A stretch of 60,000 nt of DNA, taken from assembly GCA_003281045.1 (NCBI GenBank), contig QCDD01000004.1, forward strand, positions 1 to 60,000. Direction: 5' to 3'. Source of the stretch: Pelagibacteraceae bacterium AG-349-L23. Its GTDB lineage: Bacteria > Pseudomonadota > Alphaproteobacteria > Pelagibacterales > Pelagibacteraceae. Position 1 is the stretch's first letter. The number at the start of each line of letters is the position of its first letter. Shown here piece by piece: positions 32,437 to 56,749 of this stretch. The position numbers were made by a program, and so were the translations under genes. The notes below the pieces were generated by a model. It saw nothing but the letters and a program-made list of their open reading frames with translations, was not told the origin of the DNA and searched no databases.

Positions 32437-33352
32437 AATTATTGCCATCCAAGGGAATCATCCCGCTAAACTTAACCCTTTAACCGATACCAGTATTTTT
32501 TTAGCTCATGAAATACAAAAGAAAAATTATAAAATTTTTTATTATGATCCAAAAGATTTATCTATCATTAATTTTAAAGTAGTTGCTGAAGGATTTTTTA
32601 TCAAATTTGATTATAAAAAAAAAAGATTTTTTGAAATTTTAAAAAAACAAAAACTAGAACTTATTAAGTGTAAATATTTACTTATTCGCCAAGATCCACC
32701 ATTTAATTTAGAATATATATGTTCAACTCTCATTTTAGATAAAATAAAAAAAAGAGTTAAAGTTATTAATGATCCAACAGCAATAAGAAATGTATCTGAA
32801 AAACTTTTTTCCACAAAATATCAAAAATTTATGCCAGATACTATTTTTTCACAAAATATTGATCAAATTAGAAAGTTTTTTAAAAAACATAAAAAAGTGA
32901 TTGTTAAACCTATTAATAGCTATAGTGGAAACAATATATATTTATTGACCAAGTTTAATCTAAAATTTTTTCAAAAATTTATTAAAAAACACGATCATAT
33001 TATGTGTCAAAAATATTTGTCTAAGATCAAAGAAGGAGATAAGAGAGTTTTTTTGATAAATGGTAAAGTTTGTGGCGCAATATCAAGAATTCCAAAAAAA
33101 GGCTCATTTTTAAGCAATTTAAGTAAAGGTGCAAAACCAATAAATATAAAATTGACTAATAAAGAAATGAAAATATCAAAATTGATTAGTAAAGATTTAA
33201 AAAAAGATAAAATTTTCTTTGCTGGAATTGACTTTATAGATGAACAACTGAATGGTGACATAAATGTTACATCACCTACTGGATTAAAAACTTTTTACGA
33301 TCTCTCAAAAATAAATTTAGCCTCAACTTTCTGGAAAGAATTAAAAGCGTGA
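32426..33352 (+). CDS. gshB: Glutathione synthase
   Basis: ATP-grasp ligase that adds glycine to gamma-glutamylcysteine. The 308-residue protein has IRQDPPFNLEYI, the central ATP-binding segment VKPINSYSGNNIYL and the C-terminal FAGIDFIDEQLNGDINVTSP typical of bacterial GshB. It is coupled to gshA (11 nt overlap) and to the DMT transporter (GTGA overlap). Complete glutathione synthesis is therefore encoded in one operon with a transporter. Confidence 0.95.
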   Translation: MTNKIIAIQGNHPAKLNPLTDTSIFLAHEIQKKNYKIFYYDPKDLSIINFKVVAEGFFIKFDYKKKRFFEILKKQKLELIKCKYLLIRQDPPFNLEYICSTLILDKIKKRVKVINDPTAIRNVSEKLFSTKYQKFMPDTIFSQNIDQIRKFFKKHKKVIVKPINSYSGNNIYLLTKFNLKFFQKFIKKHDHIMCQKYLSKIKEGDKRVFLINGKVCGAISRIPKKGSFLSNLSKGAKPINIKLTNKEMKISKLISKDLKKDKIFFAGIDFIDEQLNGDINVTSPTGLKTFYDLSKINLASTFWKELKA

Positions 33353-34209
33353 AAAATTTTACAGACCAACAAAAGGGATCATTATTGGCCTTTGTTGCTG
33401 TAATGTTTATTACACCAGACTCACTATTTATAAGACTTTCAAATGTAGATACTTGGGGTTTAGTTTTTTATAGGGGAATTATTCCTTTTATGACTGTTTT
33501 GACAGGTATGTTAATCATTTATAAGTTAAATTTCTTTAAAATTCTTTTCACTAGTGGTTATCATGGAATATTTTATGTAATTACATTTAGTGTAACTAAT
33601 ATAACTTTTGTGGTTTCAATTCAAAATACAAACGTAGCCAATACCTTAGTTATGATTGCGACTGCTCCAATGTTATCAGCTATTCTTGGAGCAATATTTC
33701 TAAAAGAACCACCTGATAAAAAAACTTGGATTTCTATAATAATTACTTTTTTAGCAATAATATATATTTTCTATGACTCTTTGAAGTTAGGTAATTTCTA
33801 TGGAGATATTTTAGGATTTGTCACCGCAATTGGTTTAGCGGTTGGAGCAGTTATAATCAGATCTGCTAAAACTAAAAATTTAGTTCCTGCTGCGGTAGTT
33901 GGTAAATTATTTGTAGCAACTTTTGCATTACTTTTTATCGAAAGTTTTGCATTAGTTGGTAAAGATCTTTTGATTGTTCCTTTGATGTGTATTTTATGTG
34001 TAGCGATACCTTTTGTGTTAGTGACCATTGCACCAAGGTTTATACCTGCTGCAGAGGTAAATCTTTTTTTTCTGCTAGAGACTATAATTGGTCCAATTTG
34101 GGTTTGGTTAATCATAAAAGAACAGCCTAGTTTAGAAACACTTCAGGGTGGTCTAATTATAATAACCACCATCGCAATTCACTCATACTTAAAACTCAAA
34201 AATTCTTAA
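33349..34209 (+). CDS. DMT superfamily (EamA) transporter, copy 1
   Basis: A 286-residue protein with about ten hydrophobic helices in two EamA repeats. The first repeat ends near residue 140, and the family pattern NTNVANTLVMIATAPMLSAI is visible. The start is GTG within the gshB TGA stop (GTGA overlap), so it belongs to the gshA-gshB operon. Substrate is unknown. A role with glutathione, its breakdown products or its precursors is suggested only by the operon position. Confidence 0.88.
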   Translation: MKNFTDQQKGSLLAFVAVMFITPDSLFIRLSNVDTWGLVFYRGIIPFMTVLTGMLIIYKLNFFKILFTSGYHGIFYVITFSVTNITFVVSIQNTNVANTLVMIATAPMLSAILGAIFLKEPPDKKTWISIIITFLAIIYIFYDSLKLGNFYGDILGFVTAIGLAVGAVIIRSAKTKNLVPAAVVGKLFVATFALLFIESFALVGKDLLIVPLMCILCVAIPFVLVTIAPRFIPAAEVNLFFLLETIIGPIWVWLIIKEQPSLETLQGGLIIITTIAIHSYLKLKNS

Positions 34210-34267: not shown

Positions 34268-35623
34268 ATGAATAAAGTTTTAAAAAACTCCTGGGCATTG
34301 TTTTTAGGAATGGGCTTCATAATGATGGCATATGGATTCCAAGGGTCTCTCTTAGGTGTAAGAGCTGTTCAGGAAGAATTTAGCCTTACTTCAACTGGGT
34401 TTATGATGTCTGGTTATTTTGTAGGATATTTTATCGGTGCCGCAACTATTCCAAATATAATTTCAAGTGTTGGTCACATAAGAGTTTTTGCAGCTTTTGC
34501 ATCTTTAGCTTCATTAGTTGTTTTAATTCACTCGGTAATAATTCATCCATTCATATGGTTTTTATTAAGAATACTCACAGGTGTAAGCATGGTCTGTATT
34601 TATACAGTTGCAGAAAGTTGGTTAAATGACAGATCAAGTAATAAAAATAGAGGCAGCGTACTTTCAGTTTATATGGTCATACTTTATGGAGCCATGGGCA
34701 TCGGTATGTTTTTACTTAACTTTAGTAGTCCTAAAAATTTTCAACCTTTTATCTTGGTTTCAGTAATAACTTCTGCTGCTTTAATACCTATTTTACTAAC
34801 TAAAAAAAAACCACCAAATTTTAAAAAAATACAAGCCATGAATATGAGAGAGTTATACGAATCTTCACCTTTTGGTATGGTTAGCTCTCTTTTTTATGGA
34901 ACAATACAATCAGCTTTATTCACATTACTAGCAGTTTACGCTACCTCCATGAACTTCACAATTTTAGAAATATCAATTGTAACTTTCCTATTAGCGATAT
35001 CAGGAGCGGTAGCCCAATTTCCAGTTGGTAAAATTTCTGATATTTATGATAGAAGAAGAGTAATTGTTTTCTCAACATTTGGAGCAGCAATATTTGCAAT
35101 AATTGCAATATTTGTTTCAAGACAAATGTATTTACCAGGTGGTCTTGCAACTAGTAAAACATGGTTTTATTTTTTCTTTATTCTTTTTTCATTTTGTAGT
35201 TTGCCAATGTTTTCTTTAATCCTAGCACATACAAACGATTATATTTCAAAAGAAAAATTTGTTGCAGCAGGAGCGGGACTTCAATTTGCTTTTGGATTAG
35301 GAGCAATGAGTGGGCCATTTCTTTGTTCAATATTCATGGATCTAGTTGGGCCAAATGGTTTCTTTGTGTTTCTATTTATTTTTCATTCTTTTATTGGATT
35401 TTTTGGAATATATAGAATGAAAGTAAGAAAAACTGTTGAAAATCCAGACTCTCAGTTCGTTGCTATGCCACAAACCATTACTCCAGCAGGTATTGAACTT
35501 AATCCTACTACTGAACACATAGAAGAACCATATTCAGAAAAAGTTAAAGAAATTTTAGAAAGAAAAGGTGTAAAATATAAAAAAGACGAGAACGAAGATC
35601 AAAAAGAGGAAGTGACATACTAA
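34268..35623 (+). CDS. Major facilitator superfamily transporter
   Basis: A 451-residue protein with about twelve hydrophobic segments and the MFS loop motif GKISDIYDRRRVIV between helices 8 and 9. The N-terminal half has AESWLNDRSSNKNRG, a pattern of the YcaD-like MFS branch. A hydrophilic C-terminal tail of about 65 residues ends in charged, Lys/Glu-rich sequence. It has its own promoter-like element upstream. Substrate unknown. Confidence 0.88.
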   Translation: MNKVLKNSWALFLGMGFIMMAYGFQGSLLGVRAVQEEFSLTSTGFMMSGYFVGYFIGAATIPNIISSVGHIRVFAAFASLASLVVLIHSVIIHPFIWFLLRILTGVSMVCIYTVAESWLNDRSSNKNRGSVLSVYMVILYGAMGIGMFLLNFSSPKNFQPFILVSVITSAALIPILLTKKKPPNFKKIQAMNMRELYESSPFGMVSSLFYGTIQSALFTLLAVYATSMNFTILEISIVTFLLAISGAVAQFPVGKISDIYDRRRVIVFSTFGAAIFAIIAIFVSRQMYLPGGLATSKTWFYFFFILFSFCSLPMFSLILAHTNDYISKEKFVAAGAGLQFAFGLGAMSGPFLCSIFMDLVGPNGFFVFLFIFHSFIGFFGIYRMKVRKTVENPDSQFVAMPQTITPAGIELNPTTEHIEEPYSEKVKEILERKGVKYKKDENEDQKEEVTY

Positions 35624-36779: not shown

Positions 36780-37895
36780 TTATTGTTTAGGAAAATAATC
36801 TTTAAATTCACTTTCTCTATAAACATCAGCAGTACAACAATGAAGGCCGCCGCCAAAAGCATAGGCAGCTCTTAAATCTACTGGAATTACTTCCATACCA
36901 AGTTTATCGAGTTGCTCTGCTTGATATTTTTCACTTTTTTCAACACAAACTGTCTTTGGATCTAGTACCAAAACATTCATAGAAAGCCAAACAGATGAAT
37001 AGCAAAGCGGTGGTGGTTCGTTGTGAGCAGGATGTGCAGCATCTATAATTTCCCAGCCATTATTTTCAAATAATTTTCTTTGTTCTTTGGGTAATCTTCT
37101 TTGAGGATTATTAATAATCAATCCCTCTTTTATTGGTGTAAAGGTTGCATCTATATGAATTGGGTATGGATCACCAGGAAAGTTTACAGCATGAACTCGA
37201 TGATCTTTATAATGTCTTTTTAACCAATCAATTCCTTTAAGATTTGTCGTGAAACCATGTTGTACCACTAAGTCTTTACCAAATCTCAACACATCAGCTG
37301 CATCAAACAAAGGTTCTTCTTCAGTTGTTACAAAAAATTTATCTTCAGTCCATTTTAATCTTTTTTGAATTCCAATTTTGTCAGATAAATAATCTTTTCT
37401 ATAATCTGCGTCTGTTAATCTTGGTTTTGGCGCTGACTCATGTCTCATGTTTGGATCTAAATTGTAATATTCTTTAAGAAGCGGACGGTAACAAAGATAC
37501 TCAAACCATCTACATCTATAACTCATAGTTGCCTCTAAAATTTCATTTCCAACTGTTAATAAAACATCTCTAGGAGGCATGCAGCCAAACATAGTTTCAG
37601 ATTCCCAATCAGGTGTTGAAGTTTTTTGATTAAAATTTAAAGGTGTCGGTCTATCAACTTTAATACCTCTTTTAACCAAAATATTTGAGAAATCATCAAG
37701 TAACTGATTTGCTTTATCTACAGTATCTTTTGTTCTAGGACCAAATTTCCCTCTCATATCTGAGTCTTCAGGAACTTTTGCATCTAAAGCAGGCTCTGGT
37801 GCAGGTATACATGTGCCGTCAGCCCTTCCAACAATAACATGTTTTAAAGGATCCCACTCATTCCAGCTATTTACAATCCTTTTTCCTTTTTTCAT
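36780..37895 (-). CDS. Glycine amidinotransferase-type enzyme
   Basis: A 371-residue member of the guanidino-group transferase family that includes L-arginine:glycine amidinotransferase. The catalytic Cys is in GGGLHCCTADV (Cys 353), with the Asp in LFDAADVLRFGKD and the His-Asp pair in PIHIDATFTPI. The classical reaction is arginine plus glycine to guanidinoacetate plus ornithine; other acceptors (lysine, inosamine) are known for relatives, so the acceptor is uncertain. The gene is last in a DMT transporter/creatinase/amidinotransferase operon, one base after the creatinase stop, which argues for a guanidino substrate. Confidence 0.87.
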   Translation of the reverse strand: MKKGKRIVNSWNEWDPLKHVIVGRADGTCIPAPEPALDAKVPEDSDMRGKFGPRTKDTVDKANQLLDDFSNILVKRGIKVDRPTPLNFNQKTSTPDWESETMFGCMPPRDVLLTVGNEILEATMSYRCRWFEYLCYRPLLKEYYNLDPNMRHESAPKPRLTDADYRKDYLSDKIGIQKRLKWTEDKFFVTTEEEPLFDAADVLRFGKDLVVQHGFTTNLKGIDWLKRHYKDHRVHAVNFPGDPYPIHIDATFTPIKEGLIINNPQRRLPKEQRKLFENNGWEIIDAAHPAHNEPPPLCYSSVWLSMNVLVLDPKTVCVEKSEKYQAEQLDKLGMEVIPVDLRAAYAFGGGLHCCTADVYRESEFKDYFPKQ

Positions 37896-37896
37896 T

Positions 37897-39114
37897 TTAA
37901 CCTTTTATAATATTGTGCTCTGGACCAAATGGAAACTTCGTAATATTTGCTGATCTATCCTTCCCTATTACCAAAATATCATGCTCTCTATACCCTCCTG
38001 CACCTGGATTTCCTTCAGGAATAAGTATCATAGGCTCCATTGAAATAACCATATTTTCCTCAAGAACAGTGTCAATATCCTCTCTCAATTCTAGACCCGC
38101 TTCCCTTCCATAAAAATGGGACAATACTCCAAATGAATGTCCATACCCAAACGTTCTATACTGCAAATATCCCAACTCAGCAAAAAGTTCATTTAATTCA
38201 TTACATATGTCAGAACATTTTACTCCAGGTTTTATTAACTCAAGCCCCCTTTTGTGAACCTTCACATTTGCCTCCCATGCTTTTAAAGATTCATCATTTA
38301 CATTATCTAAAAATAAAGTCCTCTCTAATGCAGTATAATATCCAGAAATCATTGGAAAAGTGTTTAAGGATAAAATATCGCCATTTACTAATTTGCGATT
38401 TGTTTTTGGATTATGTGCGCCATCTGTATTGATACCTGATTGAAACCATACCCAAGTATCCATGTATTCAGCATCTGGATATGTTTTGGCTATTTCTTTT
38501 TCCATTTTATCTCTTCCAGTTATTGCAATTTCTAGCTCTGTTGCTCCTTGTTTAATATTCTTGACAATTTCTTCTCCACCAATATCAGCAATTCTTGCCC
38601 CATTTTTTATAATTTCTATTTCTTCTTTAGATTTTATCATTCTTAACTTCATCAGTTTTTTTGAAATATCTTTAAAAGTAGAGACTGAAAAAATTGATTG
38701 AATTTTTTCATTTATTTCTAAAGTAATATGATCATTTTCAATTCCAATATTTTTAGGTATTTTATTCTCATCAATTATTGATGTTATCGCTTTTAAGAAG
38801 TTGTCCTTTTTCCAATCAGTATAAATAATATTTTCGCAATGTGATCTCCTCCAGGGCTGACTTGCATCAATATTAGCTGAAATAGTTACAATTTTATTTT
38901 CAGTAATGATACATCCGTATGGTCTGCCGAAAGAGCAATAAATAAAACCAGAGTAGTAAGCTATATTATGCATTGAGGTTAAAATAATCATATCAAGATT
39001 ATCTTTATCCATTATAGTTCTTAATTTATTTAACCTCTGATTATATTCTTCGTTAGAAAAAGGTAGTTTAGCCTTTTCACCATTCTTTAAAGTAAAAAAA
39101 TCAGGCCTTTCCAT
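37897..39114 (-). CDS. Creatinase (creatine amidinohydrolase)-like enzyme
   Basis: A 405-residue pita-bread-fold protein of the M24 family. As I recall the Pseudomonas creatinase sequence, this one matches it along its whole length: YCSFGRPY, ISANIDASQPWRR, MDTWVWFQSGINTDGAHNP, RTFGYGHSFG, REHDILV. The presumed catalytic His is at residue 234 (DGAHNP). The two metal-binding Asp residues of true M24 peptidases are replaced in LSLNTFPMISGYYTALERT, as in creatinase, so a prolidase function is unlikely. Creatinase converts creatine to sarcosine and urea. It lies between a DMT transporter and an amidinotransferase. Confidence 0.86.
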   Translation of the reverse strand: MERPDFFTLKNGEKAKLPFSNEEYNQRLNKLRTIMDKDNLDMIILTSMHNIAYYSGFIYCSFGRPYGCIITENKIVTISANIDASQPWRRSHCENIIYTDWKKDNFLKAITSIIDENKIPKNIGIENDHITLEINEKIQSIFSVSTFKDISKKLMKLRMIKSKEEIEIIKNGARIADIGGEEIVKNIKQGATELEIAITGRDKMEKEIAKTYPDAEYMDTWVWFQSGINTDGAHNPKTNRKLVNGDILSLNTFPMISGYYTALERTLFLDNVNDESLKAWEANVKVHKRGLELIKPGVKCSDICNELNELFAELGYLQYRTFGYGHSFGVLSHFYGREAGLELREDIDTVLEENMVISMEPMILIPEGNPGAGGYREHDILVIGKDRSANITKFPFGPEHNIIKG

Positions 39115-39127
39115 AAATTTTATGAAT

Positions 39128-40033
39128 TTAATTTAGAGCTATATATCTCTTATTCCATCTCATTATAAGGCTATAATAAATAATTGAGACAAAAAGAAAG
39201 AAGCCTCCCACTATTGTGTTAGTAGATGGAATTTCATTAATCCCAAATAACGGTAACCATACCCAAAAAATTCCTCCAATAACCTCTGTCAGAGATAGTA
39301 ATGTTAATTCTGCTGCCTGGATTGCTTTAGATCCTATCGAATATAAAATAAGACCTAAACACACTAATACTCCATGGAGAGAAAACATTGCACTATTATA
39401 ACTAGTTGCAAAAAAAGTTTGTTTATTAACCAAAATCATAATTGTAGCCGTTATAAAACAAAATAAGCCGGCTACAGCGACTGTTGTAAATTTTGGAGTT
39501 TCTTTTCTCCATCTTAGAGTGACAGAAAAAATTGAAAATCCTATTGATGATGTGAGTCCAAAAACAAAACCTATTAAAGAATTTTTTTCAGTATTACCAA
39601 CCGCCATGATTATGATGCCCACAGTTGCAATAAGCATTGATATCCAAACATTTAGAGAAATTTTTTCTTTTAAAAATAAAAAAGCTAATAATGCAGTAAA
39701 AAAAGGCATTGCAGCTAAACATAATAAAGTAATTGCTGCAGTGGTATTTGTAATTGAATAAATAAATGAAATCATTGCAATACCAAGACCCATGCCACCA
39801 ACAACTCCTGATTTACCTACTTTTTTGTAGTTTTTGTAAAAATTTATTCCTTCTTCGAAATATAAATATAAATTTAAAATAATAAAAATAGTTAAACCTC
39901 TACCAAAAATATATTGCCAAGGAACCATATGAGGATCATTCATATATCTCACTACTAGAGGGCCAAACGACCAAAGTATCCCTGCAAATAAAACTACCGG
40001 TACAGCTATTTTTTCATTTCTTAGTTCAACCAT
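39128..40033 (-). CDS. DMT superfamily (EamA) transporter, copy 2
   Basis: A 301-residue protein with about ten hydrophobic helices in two EamA repeats. Segments such as SITNTTAAITLLCLAAMPFF at the end of the first repeat and LTEVIGGIFWVWLPLFGI in the second are family-like. It is the first gene of the operon with the creatinase-like and amidinotransferase genes (13 bp before the creatinase start). This makes it a candidate carrier for creatine, guanidinoacetate or another guanidino compound; direction of transport cannot be inferred. Confidence 0.88.
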   Translation of the reverse strand: MVELRNEKIAVPVVLFAGILWSFGPLVVRYMNDPHMVPWQYIFGRGLTIFIILNLYLYFEEGINFYKNYKKVGKSGVVGGMGLGIAMISFIYSITNTTAAITLLCLAAMPFFTALLAFLFLKEKISLNVWISMLIATVGIIIMAVGNTEKNSLIGFVFGLTSSIGFSIFSVTLRWRKETPKFTTVAVAGLFCFITATIMILVNKQTFFATSYNSAMFSLHGVLVCLGLILYSIGSKAIQAAELTLLSLTEVIGGIFWVWLPLFGINEIPSTNTIVGGFFLFVSIIYYSLIMRWNKRYIALN

Positions 40034-40105
40034 AATCGACTATTTAGATCTAATTGATTAGCACTACAACATAAATTAAATTGTTATACAAAGTATTGGT
40101 ATTAG

Positions 40106-40111
40106 TATAAT
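40106..40111 (+). promoter_or_regulatory. Putative -10 element of the SufU-like gene
   Basis: A perfect TATAAT ends 8 bp before the ATG at 40120. The start point would fall within a few bases of the start codon, giving a very short or leaderless mRNA. A clear -35 hexamer at the right spacing is not seen. Confidence 0.4.
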
Positions 40112-40119
40112 AAATTAAT

Positions 40120-40518
40120 ATGAATTTGGATATTCTTAAAATAGCCTCTGATACCAACAATAACAAAAGTATAAAAAACTATACACACCACTCAAAATTG
40201 AAAAATTCAATGTGCGGTGATGAGATGCAAATAGATTTGGTTATAAAAAAAAATAAAATTATTGATTTTGGTTATCAAGGTAAGTCCTGTGTTTATTGTC
40301 AAGCCTCAGCAAGTTTACTTTCAAAAATTTCAATTAATGAAAATAAATCTAAAATTAATGAATTGTGCGATGATGCAAAATATTATTTTGAGGGAAATGT
40401 TGAAAATATTGAGAAAAAATGGAAATCGCTTAATAAAATATTTAATGATAAAAATTTATCTCGTAAAGAATGTATTTTATTGCCTTTTAAAACAATAAAA
40501 AAAATAGTATCAAAATGA
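40120..40518 (+). CDS. Iron-sulfur assembly scaffold, SufU/NifU-N type
   Basis: A 132-residue protein of the IscU/SufU fold. The three conserved cysteine positions are visible: NSMCGDEM, SCVYCQASASLLS (an extra Cys is present) and SRKECILLPFKTI near the C-terminus. The LSRKEC..LPF ending is more like SufU than IscU. It could hand sulfur or clusters to SUF components, but no other suf gene is in the window. It is divergent from the DMT/creatinase operon and 4 bp before the HPP gene. Confidence 0.85.
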   Translation: MNLDILKIASDTNNNKSIKNYTHHSKLKNSMCGDEMQIDLVIKKNKIIDFGYQGKSCVYCQASASLLSKISINENKSKINELCDDAKYYFEGNVENIEKKWKSLNKIFNDKNLSRKECILLPFKTIKKIVSK

Positions 40519-40522
40519 TTTT

Positions 40523-40987
40523 ATGGGTAATTTAAAACAATCTTTTATTGCAGGTTTATTTTCAATTATCACTATAGGTATTTTAACTTTATTAACTTAT
40601 AAAACTGAATTTGGAATTTTCCTTGTAGCATCTTTTGGATCATCAATGGTTCTATTGTATGGATATCCTGAAAGCCCTTTTGCCCAACCCAAAAATGTTT
40701 TTTTTGGGCATCTGGTAACTGCAATTGTAGGAATGTTTTTTTTATATTTAATTCCTTTGCCATTATTTATAATTATACCATTAGCAGTTGGTTTTGGAGT
40801 GGGTCTAATGATATTATTTAATGTTACTCATCCACCTGCAGGTGGAAATCCAATTATAGTTATTATGGGCAGTGTCTCACTAGACTATTTGTTAAGTCCA
40901 ATAATTTCAGGATCAATAATTATTATAGTTTTTGCTATTATAATTAATAAATTTATACTTAAAAAGAGTTATCCAAAAACAAAATAA
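40523..40987 (+). CDS. HPP family membrane protein
   Basis: A 154-residue membrane protein with about four or five hydrophobic helices. The family motif THPPAGGNPIIVIMG and the upstream YGYPESPFAQPKN are clear. Cyanobacterial and plant HPP proteins have been linked to nitrite uptake, but I do not extend that to this gene. It directly follows the SufU-like gene and precedes the formate dehydrogenase promoter region. Confidence 0.88.
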   Translation: MGNLKQSFIAGLFSIITIGILTLLTYKTEFGIFLVASFGSSMVLLYGYPESPFAQPKNVFFGHLVTAIVGMFFLYLIPLPLFIIIPLAVGFGVGLMILFNVTHPPAGGNPIIVIMGSVSLDYLLSPIISGSIIIIVFAIIINKFILKKSYPKTK

Positions 40988-40992
40988 TTTGT

Positions 40993-41021
40993 TTGCTAGC
41001 GACATTAAAATAATGTTAGAT
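40993..41021 (+). promoter_or_regulatory. Putative promoter of formate dehydrogenase
   Basis: TTGCTA (40993-40998) and TTAGAT (41016-41021) are spaced by 17 bp, starting 6 bp after the HPP stop codon. A clear AGGAG ribosome-binding site (41055-41059) then lies 5 nt before the fdh ATG. Each hexamer is an imperfect match. Confidence 0.45.
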
Positions 41022-41064
41022 GTCTCAAAATAAATTAATGATTGAAAGTAACGCAGGAGAATAA

Positions 41065-42264
41065 ATGAAAATATTATGTGTATTATATGATGATCCAAAA
41101 GGAGGAATGCCTAAGTCATATCCACTTAAAGATCTTCCTAAACTAGAAAAATATCCAGACGGGATGACTTTACCTTCTCCAAAAGGAAGAGATTTTAATC
41201 CAGGAGAATTATTAGGATGTGTTTCAGGAGAGTTAGGATTAAGAAAATTTTTAGAAAGTAATGGACACGAGTTAGTAGTTACTAATAGTAAAGATGGAGA
41301 TGGATGTGAGGCAGATAAGCATATCGTTGATGCTGATATAGTAATTTCTCAACCTTTTTTCCCGTATTACTTAACTAAAGAAAGAATTGCTAAAGCTAAA
41401 AACTTAAAAATGGCTATTACAGCTGGAATCGGCTCTGATCACGTGGATTTACAAGCAGCTATGGATAACAAAATTGATGTAGTTGAAGTAACTTTTTGTA
41501 ATTCAAGATCTGTTGCTGAACACATTGTAATGATGATTGTATCAATGGTGAGAGACTATCACAACCAACATAGAATTGTTAATGAAGGTGGATGGAACAT
41601 AGCAGATGCTGTGCAAAGATCTTATGATGTTGAAGGTATGCACATTGGAACTGTTGCTGCTGGCCGTATCGGTTTAGATGCATTAAGAAAAATGAAACCA
41701 TTTGATGTACACTTACATTATTTTGATAGACATAAATTACCAGATAGTGTTGAGAAAGAATTAAACTTAACATTTCATGAGTCAGTAGAGTCTATGGTAA
41801 AAGTTTGTGATGTCGTGACTATTAACTGTCCTCTCCATCCTGAGACTGAGAACTTATTTGACGATGCAATGATAAGCAAAATGAAAAAAGGTGCTTATAT
41901 TGTAAACACGGCAAGAGGTAAAATTTGTAATCGTGATGCAATTGCAAAAGCATTGAAGAGTGGTCAACTAAGTGGTTATGCTGGAGACGTTTGGTTTCCA
42001 CAGCCAGCTCCAAATGATCATGTATGGAGAACAATGCCTAACCATGGTATGACACCTCACACTTCTGGAACTTCTTTGTCAGCTCAAACAAGATATGCTG
42101 ATGGTGTAAGAGAAATCTTAGAATGTTTCTTTGAAGGAAAAGAAATTAGAAATCAATATCTTATCGTCAAAGATGGACAATTGGCTGGAATGGGTGCTCA
42201 CTCATATAGTAAAGGATCTGCCACAGGTGGTTCTGAAGAGGCAGCTAAATATAAGAAAAAATAA
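41065..42264 (+). CDS. fdh: NAD-dependent formate dehydrogenase
   Basis: A 399-residue D-2-hydroxyacid dehydrogenase-type FDH that oxidises formate to CO2 with NAD, cofactor-free and soluble. Motifs are PFFPYYLT for formate/inhibitor binding, AGIGSDHVDL, NSRSVAEH, the dinucleotide loop VAAGRIGLDAL, the catalytic Arg in NTARGK and the catalytic His in TPHTSGTSLSAQ, with GDVWFPQPAP between them. The length equals methylotroph FDH. It has a strong ribosome-binding site and a large hairpin downstream, so it is probably a single-gene, well-expressed unit. It fits SAR11 one-carbon oxidation for energy. Confidence 0.95.
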   Translation: MKILCVLYDDPKGGMPKSYPLKDLPKLEKYPDGMTLPSPKGRDFNPGELLGCVSGELGLRKFLESNGHELVVTNSKDGDGCEADKHIVDADIVISQPFFPYYLTKERIAKAKNLKMAITAGIGSDHVDLQAAMDNKIDVVEVTFCNSRSVAEHIVMMIVSMVRDYHNQHRIVNEGGWNIADAVQRSYDVEGMHIGTVAAGRIGLDALRKMKPFDVHLHYFDRHKLPDSVEKELNLTFHESVESMVKVCDVVTINCPLHPETENLFDDAMISKMKKGAYIVNTARGKICNRDAIAKALKSGQLSGYAGDVWFPQPAPNDHVWRTMPNHGMTPHTSGTSLSAQTRYADGVREILECFFEGKEIRNQYLIVKDGQLAGMGAHSYSKGSATGGSEEAAKYKKK

Positions 42265-51326: not shown

Positions 51327-54197
51327 TTAAGCTGCATCTTCTTTAAATTCATCTATGCTTGGACAAGTACAGAATATATTCTTGTCACCATAAACATTAT
51401 CAACTCTTGCAACTGGAGGCCAAAATTTATTAGCTCTTAAGAATTTTGCTGGATAAGCAGCTTCTGCTCTTGAATATTTATGCGTCCAATCATCAGAAGC
51501 TAGTTCGCTGTCCGTATGAGGAGCATTTTTTATTGGATTGTCTACTTTATCAAATTCACCTGATTTAATTTTTTCAATTTCTTCTTTAATCTTAATTAAA
51601 GTATCACAAAATCTATCGAGTTCTGACAAACCCTCACTTTCAGTTGGCTCTATCATCATTGTACCAGCTACTGGCCATGACATAGTTGGTGCATGAAACC
51701 CATAATCTATTAATCTTTTTGCGATATCTTCTTCGGTTACCCCTGTCTCTGATTTGATATTTCTAATATCAATAATACATTCGTGAGCAACATTTCCATT
51801 TGATCCTTTATACAAAATTGGAAAGTGATCTTTGAGTCTATGAGCAATATAATTTGCATTTAATATTGCTACTTCAGTAGCAAGCTTTAACCCTGCTGAT
51901 CCCATCATTTTAATGTACATCCAAGAGATTGAAAGAATACTTGAACTACCCCAAGGAGCTGCCGAGACTGCTCCAATACCAGATGTTGGTCCACAATCTT
52001 TAATAACTGGATGATTGGGTAGATAAACTTGTAAATGTTTTTTACAAGCAATCGGTCCCATGCCTGGTCCTCCCCCACCATGTGGAATACAAAATGTTTT
52101 ATGTAAATTAATATGACAGACATCTGGACCAAAATTTCCAGGCTTTGCAACTCCAACTAAGGCGTTTAAATTTGCTCCATCCATATAGACTTGTCCACCA
52201 TGTTTGTGAACTAACTCACAGATATCAGTTATTTTTTCCTCAAATACTCCATGGGTAGATGGATAAGTTACCATTAATGCCCCAAGATTTTCTGAATGTT
52301 GTTCAGCTTTTTTCTTTAAATCATCAAAATCAACATTTCCTTCTTTATCACAATTAACAACAACCACCTTCATTCCAACCATTTGTGCACTTGCTGGGTT
52401 AGTACCATGTGCTGAACTTGGAATTAAACATATATTACGATTAGCCTCACCCCTATCTAAATGATACTTTCTGATAACCATTAAGCCCGCATACTCACCT
52501 TGAGCACCTGCATTAGGTTGCAAAGAAACACCTGAAAAACCAGTTATAGAACGCAACCAATTTTTTAGATCAGTAAATAAATCTCTAAAACCCTCCATTT
52601 GTTCAATTGGAACAAACGGATGAGGTTCTGCAAATTCTTTCCATGATATTGGTATCATTTCGGCAGCAGCATTTAATTTCATTGTACAAGAACCAAGTGC
52701 AATCATAGTTCTATTCAATGCTATATCTTTATCTTCTAATCTTTTTAAATATCTAAGCATTTCAGTTTCTGAATGATATGAGTTGAAAACTGGATGTTCT
52801 AAATATTTTGAAGTTCTTAATAAATTTTTTGGAAGATTAGGTAAACTTACCGATGGATCTTCTTTTTTGATTGATTCTGCTGCATTAAAAATTTTTAATA
52901 GTTGATTTACTCTATATACATTTTTTCTCTCATCAAATGAAACAGCAAGCATCTCAGAATTTACTTTTCGAATATTAACTCTCTGATTCAGAGCATTCTT
53001 ATAAATTTGGTCAGTCTTTTCTTTGGTAATAATTGTTACAGTGTCAAAAAAATTATTCGAATAAAGCTCGTATCCAGATTGTTTTATTTTATCAGCAAAA
53101 CTTTTTGCTAATTGAGACACTCTTTCTGAAATATTTTTAATTCCATCTGGACCATGATAAATCGCATATGCTGCTGACACAATTGCTAATAAAGCTTGGG
53201 CAGTACAAATATTACTCGTCGCCTTATCTCTTCTGATATGTTGCTCTCTAGTTTGTAATGATAATCTATATGCTTTATTACCATGTCTATCAACTGATAC
53301 ACCGACAATTCTTCCAGGCATTGATCTTTTAAACTCATCTTTTGTAGCAAAAAAAGCTGCATGTGGACCTCCATATCCCATTGGAATTCCAAACCTTTGG
53401 GAGCTTCCAACTGCAATGTCGGCACCAAGTTCTCTTGGTGTTTTTAATTTTGCTAAAGCCAACAGATCACAAGCTAATACCGCCTTTCCATTTTTTTTGT
53501 GAATTTTGCTAATCGCTTCACTTGGGTCTTTAATATCTCCTAAAGTTCCTGGATATTGTAAAATTCCACAAACTAAATCTTCTTTTAGCTGGTCTAAAAC
53601 TTCATCTTCTTTACCGACTAAAACCTTTAAACCCATAGGTTCAGCTCTTGTTTGAATTACATTTATTGTTTGAGGGTGGCAATCTTCAGAAACAAAAACT
53701 AAATTACTATCTTTTTTATTTAATCTGTGACTTAAACCCATGGCTTCTGCTGCTGCTGTACCTTCATCTAATAAAGATGCATTGGCAATATCCATCCCTG
53801 TAAAGTCAACAATCATTTGTTGAAAGTTTAATAACATCTCAAGTCTTCCTTGAGCTACCTCAGGCTGATAAGGTGTATAGGAAGTGTACCAACCTGGATT
53901 TTCTAATATATTTCTTAAAATTACATAGGGTGTATAGGTTCCATAATAACCCATACCAATAAAATTTGAGTAAACTTGATTTTTTTTCGAAATTGCTCGT
54001 AATTTTCTTAACGCCTCGTACTCTGAATTTGAATCACCAATATTAAGTTCACCTTTAAACTTTATTTTTTCTGGAACAGTATTGTCAATCAAATCATCTA
54101 GTGATTTATAATTTAATTCTTTTAACATTTTTGATTGGTCTTCTTTTGAAGGACCAATATGTCTTCTTAAAAAATCTTTTTCTGAATTTGGTAACAT
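51327..54197 (-). CDS. gcvP: Glycine dehydrogenase (decarboxylating), P-protein
   Basis: PLP-dependent P-protein of the glycine cleavage system, 956 residues with the fused N- and C-terminal halves of the proteobacterial type. Visible are RRHIGPS at the start, YTPYQPEVAQGRLE, and the PLP-lysine region INLHKTFCIPHGGGGPG (about residue 700). The reaction decarboxylates glycine and transfers the aminomethyl group to GcvH. It overlaps gcvH by one base and is third in gcvT-gcvH-gcvP, under a tandem glycine riboswitch. Confidence 0.98.
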   Translation of the reverse strand: MLPNSEKDFLRRHIGPSKEDQSKMLKELNYKSLDDLIDNTVPEKIKFKGELNIGDSNSEYEALRKLRAISKKNQVYSNFIGMGYYGTYTPYVILRNILENPGWYTSYTPYQPEVAQGRLEMLLNFQQMIVDFTGMDIANASLLDEGTAAAEAMGLSHRLNKKDSNLVFVSEDCHPQTINVIQTRAEPMGLKVLVGKEDEVLDQLKEDLVCGILQYPGTLGDIKDPSEAISKIHKKNGKAVLACDLLALAKLKTPRELGADIAVGSSQRFGIPMGYGGPHAAFFATKDEFKRSMPGRIVGVSVDRHGNKAYRLSLQTREQHIRRDKATSNICTAQALLAIVSAAYAIYHGPDGIKNISERVSQLAKSFADKIKQSGYELYSNNFFDTVTIITKEKTDQIYKNALNQRVNIRKVNSEMLAVSFDERKNVYRVNQLLKIFNAAESIKKEDPSVSLPNLPKNLLRTSKYLEHPVFNSYHSETEMLRYLKRLEDKDIALNRTMIALGSCTMKLNAAAEMIPISWKEFAEPHPFVPIEQMEGFRDLFTDLKNWLRSITGFSGVSLQPNAGAQGEYAGLMVIRKYHLDRGEANRNICLIPSSAHGTNPASAQMVGMKVVVVNCDKEGNVDFDDLKKKAEQHSENLGALMVTYPSTHGVFEEKITDICELVHKHGGQVYMDGANLNALVGVAKPGNFGPDVCHINLHKTFCIPHGGGGPGMGPIACKKHLQVYLPNHPVIKDCGPTSGIGAVSAAPWGSSSILSISWMYIKMMGSAGLKLATEVAILNANYIAHRLKDHFPILYKGSNGNVAHECIIDIRNIKSETGVTEEDIAKRLIDYGFHAPTMSWPVAGTMMIEPTESEGLSELDRFCDTLIKIKEEIEKIKSGEFDKVDNPIKNAPHTDSELASDDWTHKYSRAEAAYPAKFLRANKFWPPVARVDNVYGDKNIFCTCPSIDEFKEDAA

Positions 54198-54577
54198 TAT
54201 GCGGAAGTCTCCTTTGCAAATTTATCGTAATCGTCTTTGTTCATTAAAGTATCCATTTCTGATGGGTCTTTTATTTTTAGTTTAAAAAACCACGCTGAGT
54301 CCTCTGGGTCTTGATTAATCTTTGATGGATCATCTACTATAGCTTGATTGGTATCAACTATTTCACCGCTCACAGGGGTATATACATCGCTAGCAGCTTT
54401 CGTTGACTCTACAACACCAGCTGTACCATCTTTCTCTACGCTAGAACCTTTTTCTGGAAGTTCTGCAAAAACTATATCACCTAACATCTCTGTAGCATGT
54501 TTTGTGATGCCAATTGTTGCAACATCTCCATCTAATTTAATCCACTCGTGCTCTTTTGAATATTTTACTTCACTCAT
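54197..54577 (-). CDS. gcvH: Glycine cleavage system H protein
   Basis: Lipoyl carrier of 126 residues that shuttles the aminomethyl group between GcvP and GcvT. The lipoylation site is [10 protein letters not shown], with the modified Lys at about residue 60, and the start [11 protein letters not shown] is typical. One-base overlaps with gcvT and gcvP indicate tightly coupled synthesis. Confidence 0.98.
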
Positions 54578-55680
54578 TAGTTTACCCCTTTGACATAACT
54601 TTTTCTATAAAATGGTAAGCTGCAAATACTTGCAGGATGTTTTTTACCTCTGACCTCTAAAAATACTTTAGTATTTTTTTTTGAAAATTCATTTTCCACA
54701 TAACCCATTGCAACAGGTCCATTAACACTTGGTCCAAATGTACCACTTGTGATTTCTCCAATATGAACATCTGATTGATTAAATATTTTTGTTTTTTCTC
54801 TAGCAATAATTCTGCCCTCAGGTTTAATTCCAACTCTTATTTTACTGACACCATCATTTAATTGTTTAATAATTATGTCAGAGCCAATAAAATCTCCCTT
54901 TGAAATTCTTTCTTTTGAAATAGCCCACTTTAAATTTGCTTCCACTGGAGTTTTGTCTTTATCAAGATCATGACCATAAAGACATAAACCTGCTTCCAAT
55001 CTTAATGTATCTCTTGCTCCAAGACCTATCAATTTAGATCCTTTATTGATTAATTCTCTAGTTAATTGGTCGACAAAATCATTTGCGATTGATATCTCAA
55101 AACCGTCTTCACCTGTGTAACCAGATCGCGTAATATAAACTTTCTGATTTTCAAATGTAAACCAGTTTCCAGACATAAAATTTAGATCTTTCACACCATT
55201 AATAACACCATTAAGAATTTCTGATGATTTTGGACCCTGAATGGCAATTAGAGATCTATTTTCATCCAGAACCATTTTGTACTTATCCTCAAGAAGTTCT
55301 TTTAAAATTTTAAAGTCATTATCTTTACATGCTGCATTGAGAATTATCAAAAAGCCTTCTTTTGTTTTTGTGATAATTAAATCATCATGTATCCCAGCAT
55401 CTTTGTCCATTAAGAAGCTGTATTTTGAATGATTTAATTTCAAATTTTTAAGATCTAAAGGAAAAATTTTTTCTAAATCTTTGATTAAGTCTTCTCCACC
55501 ATAAATAAATAGCTGACCCATATGGGAAACATCGAAGATACCTGAGTGATTTCTTGTGAATTTGTGTTCTTCTACAATACCTTCCGAATATTGTATTGGC
55601 ATTTGATAGCCTGCAAATTCAACGAATTTTGCATTACAATCTTGATGTAATTGGTACAGCGATGTTTTTTTTGTTTCCAT
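54577..55680 (-). CDS. gcvT: Aminomethyltransferase, glycine cleavage T protein
   Basis: Releases ammonia and makes 5,10-methylene-tetrahydrofolate from the aminomethyl-lipoyl group. The 367-residue protein shows [13 protein letters not shown], the folate-binding and catalytic region [14 protein letters not shown] and [14 protein letters not shown]. The start ATG (55678-55680) lies directly downstream of the tandem glycine riboswitch and forms part of a 12-bp alternative helix described below. No strong ribosome-binding site is seen; the best is AAAGAG, also inside that helix. Confidence 0.97.
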
Positions 55681-55839
55681 ATTAACTCTTTGTACCCATC
55701 TGTATATTTGCCTGAGAGTTTTGCTCCTTCGGCGAGAATTAAATCTCTTTCCAGAGTTAATATGTTACGGTCCTTTTTGCCTGAGAGATTCCTGGGTGGT
55801 TGCTCCTTCGGCGCTACGATAATCTGTAGTCTCTCCCGT
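55678..55839 (-). promoter_or_regulatory. Tandem glycine riboswitch upstream of gcvT
   Basis: Two gcvT-motif aptamers on the minus strand. Aptamer 1 spans about 55839-55767 and aptamer 2 about 55756-55699. Each has the conserved core GCCGAAGGAGCAA (forward positions 55800-55812 and 55721-55733) followed by CTCTCAGGCAAA. Short P1 stems ACGG/CCGT and TCT/AGA close them. The region between aptamer 2 and the gcvT ATG carries the presumed expression platform. A 12-bp inverted repeat (55753-55764 with 55678-55689) pairs the linker strand with the start codon region. SAR11 glycine riboswitches are known from published work on gcvT and malate synthase. Confidence 0.92.
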
Positions 55840-55845
55840 TGCAGG

Positions 55846-55874
55846 ATACTCTTACATGTGTGGAAAAAAGTCAA
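55846..55874 (-). promoter_or_regulatory. Putative promoter of the gcv operon
   Basis: On the minus strand TTGACT (55869-55874) and GAGTAT (55846-55851) are spaced by 17 bp. The predicted start point, near 55840, falls at the first base of the first riboswitch aptamer stem. The -35 hexamer overlaps the stop codon of the upstream DMT gene, so the promoter is partly inside that gene. The -10 hexamer matches consensus poorly (3 of 6). Confidence 0.5.
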
Positions 55875-56749
55875 TCAGAAACAATTTTTTTTTGTTTACT
55901 TAAAAGCGAGTAAAATTGTAATAAAACCGCAGAAAGTATGATTGCACCACCAATTAATCCAAATACAGAGGGTCTTTCACTTACAAAAAGGAATGCCCAT
56001 ATCGGTCCTAGGACAGATTCGGATAACATTATGATTCCTACCATTGCAGACGGTGTTGTTCTTGCACCGATAGTTATAAATATAAAACCAAAACCAACTT
56101 GAAAAAAACCTGCGAGAAAACCCAAAAAGATATCATGAGGAGAAATCATGATTTTAGTGGAAAGCAAAAAACCAATTAGACATGAACTCACACCAGAAAC
56201 GAACTGGGCTGGCACCATATCCACAGAGGGAAATTTTCTCACAATCATTATTAAAATTGCAAAAGTAATTGGCATTGTAAAAGCTGCAAGGTTTCCAGAT
56301 AGTTCTCCAGGAGATAATGAATTGCCAACCATTAATAAGACACCTGTCATCGCCAGACAGATTGAAAACAAAGTAATTAAATTTATTTTTTCCTTAAGGA
56401 AAAAATACCCAAATATTGCAAGAAATAGTATTTGAAGTGAAATGATAAAATTAGTATTAGCAACAGTGGTGTTGTACATAGCAAACACATATCCACAAAA
56501 ACCAAAAGATAAAATAATTCCACCAAACAATCCTGGTAATCCAGATTTATAAAATGACTCAATTGTTTTTCCTCTATAACTTAAAATTAAGAAAGCTAGA
56601 ATTGTTAAAGAAAAAAATAAGGATCTCCAAAATAGAATTTGCCATAATGTAGCTCCCTCAAAAGATTTTACAATTAATCCACCAAAACTTAAACTTAATG
56701 CACCTAAAAAAATTAATAATGGTCCAGGTAAGTTTCTTATAAAAGTCAT
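55871..56749 (-). CDS. DMT superfamily (EamA) transporter, copy 3
   Basis: A 292-residue protein with about ten hydrophobic helices and two EamA repeats. The segments YNTTVANTNFIISLQILFLA and SVLGPIWAFLFVSERPSVFG are family-like. It overlaps pxpC by one base and so belongs to the pxpB-pxpC operon, suggesting transport of 5-oxoproline or a related compound. Its end overlaps the gcv promoter. Confidence 0.88.
   Translation of the reverse strand: MTFIRNLPGPLLIFLGALSLSFGGLIVKSFEGATLWQILFWRSLFFSLTILAFLILSYRGKTIESFYKSGLPGLFGGIILSFGFCGYVFAMYNTTVANTNFIISLQILFLAIFGYFFLKEKINLITLFSICLAMTGVLLMVGNSLSPGELSGNLAAFTMPITFAILIMIVRKFPSVDMVPAQFVSGVSSCLIGFLLSTKIMISPHDIFLGFLAGFFQVGFGFIFITIGARTTPSAMVGIIMLSESVLGPIWAFLFVSERPSVFGLIGGAIILSAVLLQFYSLLSKQKKIVSD

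Follow-up and report, generated by a model that had tools for sequence, protein, structure and literature searches.

Creatinase and amidinotransferase genes lie side by side in SAR11 bacteria and may form a catabolic module for guanidino compounds

Few bacterial groups of the ocean match SAR11 in abundance, and creatine use by it has already been suggested in print: a SAR11 gene list names a creatinase cluster, SAR2086, and the conversion of creatine to glycine was proposed (PMC3686209; this and the other papers given by PMC number are cited for the excerpts available). Creatine use was also proposed for AEGEAN169, with reference to a study of how creatine is used in seawater (PMC11366302). 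Amidinotransferases are reversible, and guanidinoacetate serves as a donor for human L-arginine:glycine amidinotransferase (AGAT) and for CyrA (PMC4887976). We analysed a stretch of 60,000 nucleotides, hereafter the window, from contig QCDD01000004.1 of Pelagibacteraceae bacterium AG-349-L23. This is a SAR11 genome of 912 kb that is 73% complete, so that genes absent from the window genome itself weigh little. The window carries a trio of genes at 36780-40033, all on the minus strand. The coordinates of the open reading frames (ORFs) confirmed the spacings of 13 and 1 bp given in an earlier note on this DNA. The three genes are:

36780..37895, minus strand: AGAT-family amidinotransferase, 371 aa; triad D198-H247-C353; flap DPYPI where the human enzyme has DPNPM
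37897..39114, minus strand: creatinase (creatine amidinohydrolase), 405 aa; Creatinase_N and Peptidase_M24 domains
39128..40033, minus strand: EamA/DMT-family membrane transporter, 301 aa; EamA domain; link to the enzyme pair uncertain

In the open-access literature, we found no description of the amidinotransferase of SAR11 or of a creatinase-amidinotransferase operon in bacteria. The partner of the creatinase is apparently uncharacterised, and the locus apparently brings ordinary enzymes into a new pairing. Our reading, in which we have about as much confidence as doubt, is that the creatinase-AGAT pair may be a catabolic guanidino-compound module of SAR11, both enzymes supplying glycine.

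Identity of the creatinase and the amidinotransferase

Compared with solved structures (phmmer), the 405-residue protein scored 529.6 bits against the creatinase 1chm and 98.2 bits against the best prolidase, which was the best non-creatinase. It was identical to 1chm at 228 of 398 aligned residues (57%) and contained the DGAHNP motif, which bears out the full-length match to creatinase reported earlier. Its residues R64, H234, E264, H326, R337, E360, and H378 aligned to R64, H232, E262, H324, R335, E358, and H376 of the P. putida creatinase, which we take to be the creatine-binding and catalytic residues; P. putida is presumably the organism of 1CHM, and 1chm chain positions run one below the literature residue numbers. 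In the alignment to 1pv9, Asn251 and Ala262 stand where prolidases have their two metal Asp, and His378 takes the place of a metal Glu; in 1pv9, these positions are presumably metal ligands. The loss of the peptidase metal Asp residues noted earlier is thus real at both columns. Paralogous M24 proteins likewise lack both, so that this loss alone is not diagnostic of a creatinase. A quick tree built from 55 M24 proteins with long-branched outgroups placed 1chm and 7yto within the clade of creatinases from SAR11 and other Alphaproteobacteria and left four other M24 proteins outside it, with a Shimodaira-Hasegawa-like approximate likelihood-ratio test (SH-aLRT) support of 99. Grouping with prolidases or with the dimethylsulfoniopropionate (DMSP) lyase DddP had been named beforehand as the opposing outcome; the protein sits in the creatinase clade.

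Three other assignments were tried and rejected. As a prolidase or Xaa-Pro peptidase, the protein reached 116.7 of the 630 bits needed for PepQ and had other residues in place of three metal ligands, two Asp and a Glu. As an ectoine hydrolase DoeA, it stayed below the curated cut-offs (75.2 of 575 and 74.1 of 613 bits). As DddP, it had no DddP model among its NCBIfam matches. The chains 4rzy and 4b28, which we take to be DddP, were absent from its 49 structure matches, yet they top the list for the DddP-like protein of G549 (G and L labels denote genomes and loci). Judged by its sequence, this 405-residue protein belongs to the true creatinases and is neither prolidase nor DddP.

The only Pfam match of the 371-residue neighbour was ADI, at 24.1 bits (cut-off 22.8). 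Its best solved match was AGAT (2.4e-84, phmmer), three other amidinotransferases scoring lower, and 155 of 350 aligned residues (44%) were identical to the human enzyme. D198, H247, and C353 aligned with the human triad D254, H303, and C407, in columns kept across the aligned relatives shown, and the Cys-His-Asp set described in the earlier note was found in place. Human Asp170, Asp305, Arg322, Ser354, and Ser355 were also kept, and Tyr164 was replaced by Phe. The human-type flap residues were not found, Asn300 being Tyr244 and Met302 being Ile246. The resulting flap, DPYPI, was common to most aligned relatives, with the exceptions of L231 and L235 (DPFPT), L088 (DLIPT, a 61% relative), and the distant L089, L092, and L093. 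CyrA and AoaA have Phe and Ser at the places of human Asn300 and Met302 and are still glycine enzymes (PMC3684758, PMC4887976). The human-type flap residues are therefore not strictly defining for AGAT, and the flap change is compatible with glycine while admitting other substrates.

Conservation of the pair and its gene company

To see how widespread the arrangement is, 147 Pelagibacteraceae genomes (the family draw) were surveyed, with creatinase counted at 239 bits or more. AGAT was matched in 39 of them (in G006 as a 34% relative only, in G011, G016, and G092 as contig-edge pieces) and creatinase in 27, four being pieces (G020, G042, G096, G130). Both genes were present in 15 of the 147 genomes, G006 excluded, and in all 15 they were adjacent on the same strand. 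AGAT preceded creatinase in G010 and G119, the reverse of the usual order, and the AGAT of G011 was cut by the contig end. Within the window genus, AGAT occurred in 26 and creatinase in 11 of 27 genomes.

The loci retrieved from GTDB with the window AGAT were the best 80 of 468 relatives (79 from Pelagibacteraceae or Candidatus Pelagibacter and one, L216, from Alphaproteobacteria), and 77 of these show the upstream gene. Creatinase lay upstream in 49 of the 77, 47 times directly before AGAT and twice with an intervening ORF (a 570-residue same-strand ORF in L182 and L220). The DMT gene was present in 76, the exception, L210, ending at a contig edge. Directly downstream of AGAT, 31 of the 77 had a PF01212 gene of the pyridoxal-phosphate (PLP), threonine-aldolase type. 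Together with the adjacency in 15 of 15 family genomes, these counts indicate that the arrangement is conserved in marine genomes, as the earlier note had suggested checking. Outside the family, a close AGAT (61-79% identity) was present in four genomes, three of which also had creatinase, to be compared with 40 of 363 (P 0.005); counted by genus, the figures were 2 of 3 versus 31 of 267 (P 0.036).

In a wider draw over the order, AGAT was found in 152 of 197 genomes. The genus accounted for 108 of these, out of its 117 genomes, and a second SAR11 family for the other 44; G549, one of the 108, carries the AGAT2 type only (see below). The nine genus genomes without AGAT also lacked DMT and creatinase (9 of 9). 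The flanking HPP gene was missing too in eight of the nine and lay at a contig start in the ninth. The AGAT-less genomes are therefore probably assembly gaps, and the counts probably understate how near to core AGAT is; for this reason, the joint loss of DMT and AGAT was not used as evidence of linkage. A creatinase gene in G512, of the second family (L258:2205-3422), is about 80% identical to that of the window and lies beside unrecognised genes, pointing to lateral transfer or contamination.

The pair is also present in a cultured strain. In G026, the gcv glycine riboswitch lies at 649787-649876 and a moeA-like gene ends at 670505. For HTCC1062, the printed intervals are 649763-649953 and 670506-670772, the latter between SAR11_0685 moeA and SAR11_0686 (PMC2704228). 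As the riboswitch falls inside the first interval and the moeA-like gene ends one base before the second, we identify G026 as HTCC1062. By gene order, SAR11_0686 is the DMT gene, followed by creatinase and then amidinotransferase, whose tags we infer to be 0687 and 0688. The DMT start predicted here, 670554, is inside the printed interval, so that the annotated SAR11_0686 starts later. Among five HTCC1062 locus tags, the open-access literature gave a match only for 0686 and 0690. HTCC1062 carries the creatinase and amidinotransferase pair, which makes the proposal directly testable.

In sister genera (L074, L080, L081, L082, L083), AGAT, creatinase, or both lead an operon of EutA-like, DoeA-like, and PotABCD-like genes, in which PotA passes its model, PotD is SBP_bac_8, and the names PotB and PotC were given by eye. 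Those EutA- and DoeA-like proteins that were scanned fell short of the curated cut-offs for ectoine (205 of 318 and 461 of 613 bits). On another of its contigs, the window genome has an EutA-DoeA-Pot run that includes neither AGAT nor creatinase and whose PotD is 42% identical to that of L074. Elsewhere, AGAT was seen before a GcvT/DmdA-like aminomethyltransferase gene (G446), with EutABC- and DoeB-like genes (G306), before genes of serine-biosynthesis type (G432; a phosphoglycerate dehydrogenase recognised by profile and an aminotransferase by eye), and, as AGAT2, with a dimethylglycine dehydrogenase gene (577 bits to 5l46) directly on one side and a methyltransferase gene directly on the other (G549). 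In this handful of settings chosen for inspection, most were catabolic, the serine genes being biosynthetic.

The AGAT2 subfamily is distinct, with 100/100 support, and has Tyr at the place of human Ser354. It lies near TauD-like and choline-dehydrogenase-like genes in L078, L139, L248, and L250, and near a thiamine-diphosphate (ThDP) enzyme gene in L139 and L248. The long operon-like run, fullest in L248 (4142-17000) and cut by the contig in L250, comprises TauD-like, choline-dehydrogenase-like, EamA, 2-oxoglutarate (2OG)-oxygenase, luciferase-like, ThDP, AA_synth, and aldehyde dehydrogenase genes, possibly a pathway for taurocyamine or another guanidino compound. In G549, the run (L237:3433-11513, the same region as L249) consists of a homocysteine methyltransferase-like gene, dimethylglycine dehydrogenase, AGAT, methyltransferase, a Rieske oxygenase, and the DddP-like protein. 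The G549 methyltransferase was considered as a guanidinoacetate methyltransferase and rejected: its best solved match was Methyltransferase-like 27 and none of its seven matches was so named. As to viruses, relatives of either protein were not confirmed in IMG/VR by a single-protein search, which finds close relatives only; virus-borne creatine-synthesis genes have been reported, mainly for the methyltransferase GAMT (PMC11360552).

Around the operon, the window contains the following features:

40034..40119, no strand: divergent intergenic region of 86 bp, likely the operon promoter site, judged from its position only
41065..42264, plus strand: flanking gene for an NAD-dependent formate dehydrogenase of PRK07574 type, taken as molybdenum-free; last one-carbon oxidation step
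51327-55680: gcvT-gcvH-gcvP-like genes, named from the sequence without a profile scan
55758..55848, minus strand: glycine riboswitch aptamer ahead of these genes; glycine-metabolism context, outside the operon

In many relatives, MobA/MoeA-like genes replace the formate dehydrogenase gene beside the operon (window 40120-42264; L066-L073, L141-L220), and two loci show both. Creatinase was present in 40 of 43 loci with MobA/MoeA-like genes (2 of the 40 also showing formate dehydrogenase) versus 5 of 26 with only the PRK07574-type formate dehydrogenase (Fisher P 4e-10; 8 of 77 loci with neither were left out). This association is strong but follows clades and was not taken as functional.

Proposed function and competing explanations

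We propose that imported creatine would be hydrolysed by the creatinase to sarcosine and urea. The family, the active-site residues, and the clade were observed, and on these grounds the activity is very probable. A sarcosine dehydrogenase is named for HTCC1062 (PMC3160333). The folate-linked enzyme of this kind reported for SAR11 would demethylate sarcosine to glycine and one-carbon units, and formate would be oxidised by the dehydrogenase encoded beside the operon; the literature and the gene context make this step likely. SAR11 is auxotrophic for glycine, a need relieved by glycine betaine, and glycine is limiting (PMC12478193). The amidinotransferase, for its part, would run opposite to its direction in animals, with guanidinoacetate, or some related guanidino acid, and ornithine giving glycine and arginine. 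The amidino group would then be kept as arginine, so that its nitrogen would not be lost as urea. We favour this direction since amidinotransferases are reversible, guanidinoacetate is a known donor, and SAR11 needs glycine, and hold it tentatively, a little short of even confidence. Animal phosphagens include creatine, glycocyamine, and taurocyamine. A broader idea, which we regard as quite unlikely, is that SAR11 has a dedicated amidinotransferase clade that would run in reverse as a nitrogen-sparing de-amidination of marine guanidino compounds, with AGAT2 acting likewise on, for example, taurocyamine, and animal phosphagens would be a source of glycine, taurine, and arginine.

Uptake might involve a PotABCD-type ABC importer encoded elsewhere, rather than the adjacent DMT protein. 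The latter has an EamA domain (62.8 bits, Pfam cut-off 28.2), and the earlier note had it importing or exporting the guanidino compound. DMT orthologues (56-60% identity) have neither enzyme gene beside them in G002, G008, G068, and G549. In G002 and G008, the DMT gene lies in a run with MoeA-/MobA-like genes and near relatives of two window genes, EamA at 33349 and MFS at 34268; in G068, it lies in a similar setting, beside the same 152-aa ORF, with the contig beginning nearby; and in G549, it adjoins a threonine-aldolase-like gene. DMT and creatinase occur without AGAT in G006 and G038, and in G020 the creatinase is at a contig edge, so that no downstream gene is visible. Outside SAR11, 43 genomes of the class had a creatinase match; in five of the 27 loci retained from them, Pot-type genes lay at most 1.5 kb from creatinase, and in G357 divergently beside it. 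The DMT gene seems to have been at the locus for longer than the enzyme genes, we doubt that it acts on guanidino compounds, and the case for the dedicated transporter of the earlier note is weakened. That the PotABCD-type importer is the likelier route seems to us an even call. The window holds further EamA/DMT-type genes at 33349-34209 (Pfam EamA, beside an MFS gene) and at 55871-56749 (by eye, ahead of the gcv riboswitch and beside 5-oxoprolinase-part-like genes).

Several observations weigh against a glycine-supplying module. The flap changes N300Y and M302I set the enzyme apart from human AGAT, and glycine and guanidinoacetate may not be its substrate pair. AGAT stands without creatinase in 28 of the 77 GTDB loci and, in the second SAR11 family, in 9 of 10 tested genomes (two of the ten less than 75% complete), there among cell-shape genes, an amino-acid-type ABC transporter, and an FAD (flavin adenine dinucleotide) hydroxylase, a setting that is uninformative. 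The pair is thus optional, AGAT being near-constant and creatinase the optional part. Ureohydrolases are present in 26 of 27 genus genomes (two that were scanned are agmatinase-type) and offer another possible route for guanidino acids. Finally, the operon showed no glycine riboswitch, either in the window or in the loci scanned; the riboswitches of the window and of G026 sit at the gcv genes instead, and control of the operon by one was rejected.

Part of this evidence suits a different explanation, namely that only creatine is degraded and that the amidinotransferase uses another acceptor or donor (for example beta-alanine, gamma-aminobutyrate (GABA), taurine, or a diamine) in an unrelated pathway, having become a neighbour through a hot spot downstream of DMT. 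The flap unlike that of human AGAT, the AGAT that is near-core in the genus and also occurs without creatinase, and the DMT locus without either enzyme in other genera are all consistent with it. However, all 15 genomes with both genes have them adjacent, in two orders and two operon types; creatinase co-occurs with AGAT outside the family; and in sister genera both head the same EutA-DoeA-Pot operon type. We consider this explanation unlikely, while still giving it real weight.

It is improbable that AGAT runs forward, from arginine and glycine to guanidinoacetate and ornithine, with the product exported by DMT or methylated to creatine and later recycled by creatinase, as a self-made solute or store. 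The family name, the DMT gene near AGAT in 76 of 77 loci, and the EamA-type genes that also adjoin AGAT2 fit such a role. In contrast, glycine is limiting in SAR11 (PMC12478193), a creatinase from the same operon would destroy the product, the trio contains no methyltransferase, and in G549 none of the seven solved matches of the methyltransferase is named guanidinoacetate methyltransferase. The proposal in the earlier note that AGAT makes the substrate of creatinase is weakened in the same way, as it needs guanidinoacetate methyltransferase, of which none lies within the trio (no genome-wide search was made). The puzzle of a synthesis and a degradation enzyme in one operon disappears if AGAT runs in reverse.

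That the operon is mainly a nitrogen source, with creatine-derived urea feeding the cell, is very improbable and largely refuted for the genus: creatine is nitrogen-rich, Ca. Indicimonas of AEGEAN169 was reported with creatine and urea use genes (PMC11366302), and G088 has both creatinase and urease, but a full urease domain was found in 1 of 27 genus genomes (G088), that is 1 of 11 with creatinase, and urea carboxylase exceeded its cut-off in 0 of 30 genomes. Short sub-cut-off urease matches were seen in G069 and G131, and partial sub-cut-off urea carboxylase matches in all 30, the fullest in G088. Given these counts, urea from creatine is probably waste in the genus and not used. Altogether, the reading given in the earlier note stands in part: the enzyme identities, the conservation, and environmental guanidino compounds as the theme of the operon were supported, while the dedicated DMT, the nitrogen supply through urea, and an AGAT product feeding creatinase were weakened.

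If the catabolic glycine-supplying module proposed here is real, creatine and guanidinoacetate would join the possible glycine sources of SAR11, connecting guanidino compounds of animals and algae with the microbial loop. With urea apparently unused by most of the genus, creatine use would release it to urea-using neighbours.

Comparison with known systems

The published account of cluster SAR2086 shares with ours the creatinase and the creatine-to-glycine idea; in the excerpt available, it leaves the amidinotransferase, the operon, and urea unmentioned (PMC3686209). Relatives of the ectoine utilisation genes (EutA, DoeA/EutD, EutB, EutC) directly adjoin AGAT or creatinase in sister genera, and in G306 they adjoin AGAT, but the EutA- and DoeA-like proteins that were scanned score below the cut-offs, and ectoine as their substrate is not assured. 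CyrA and AoaA, the bacterial AGATs of cylindrospermopsin synthesis, belong to the same family and also have a replaced flap. They differ in belonging to a biosynthetic cluster and in their flap letters, as compared by published text alone. With the described creatinase (EC 3.5.3.3, 1CHM), the SAR11 protein shares a full-length match (57% identity over 398 residues), the presumed creatine-binding and catalytic residues, and the clade, whereas its operon partner is an amidinotransferase and 26 of 27 genus genomes lack a full urease domain. Human AGAT (GATM, EC 2.1.4.1, 1JDW) and the SAR11 amidinotransferase have in common 44% identity over 350 residues, the triad, Asp170, Asp305, Arg322, Ser354, and Ser355. 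They are set apart by the flap, DPYPI in SAR11 in place of DPNPM, by Phe for Tyr164, and by their company: the SAR11-type genes stand in bacterial operons with mostly catabolic neighbours, not in creatine synthesis.

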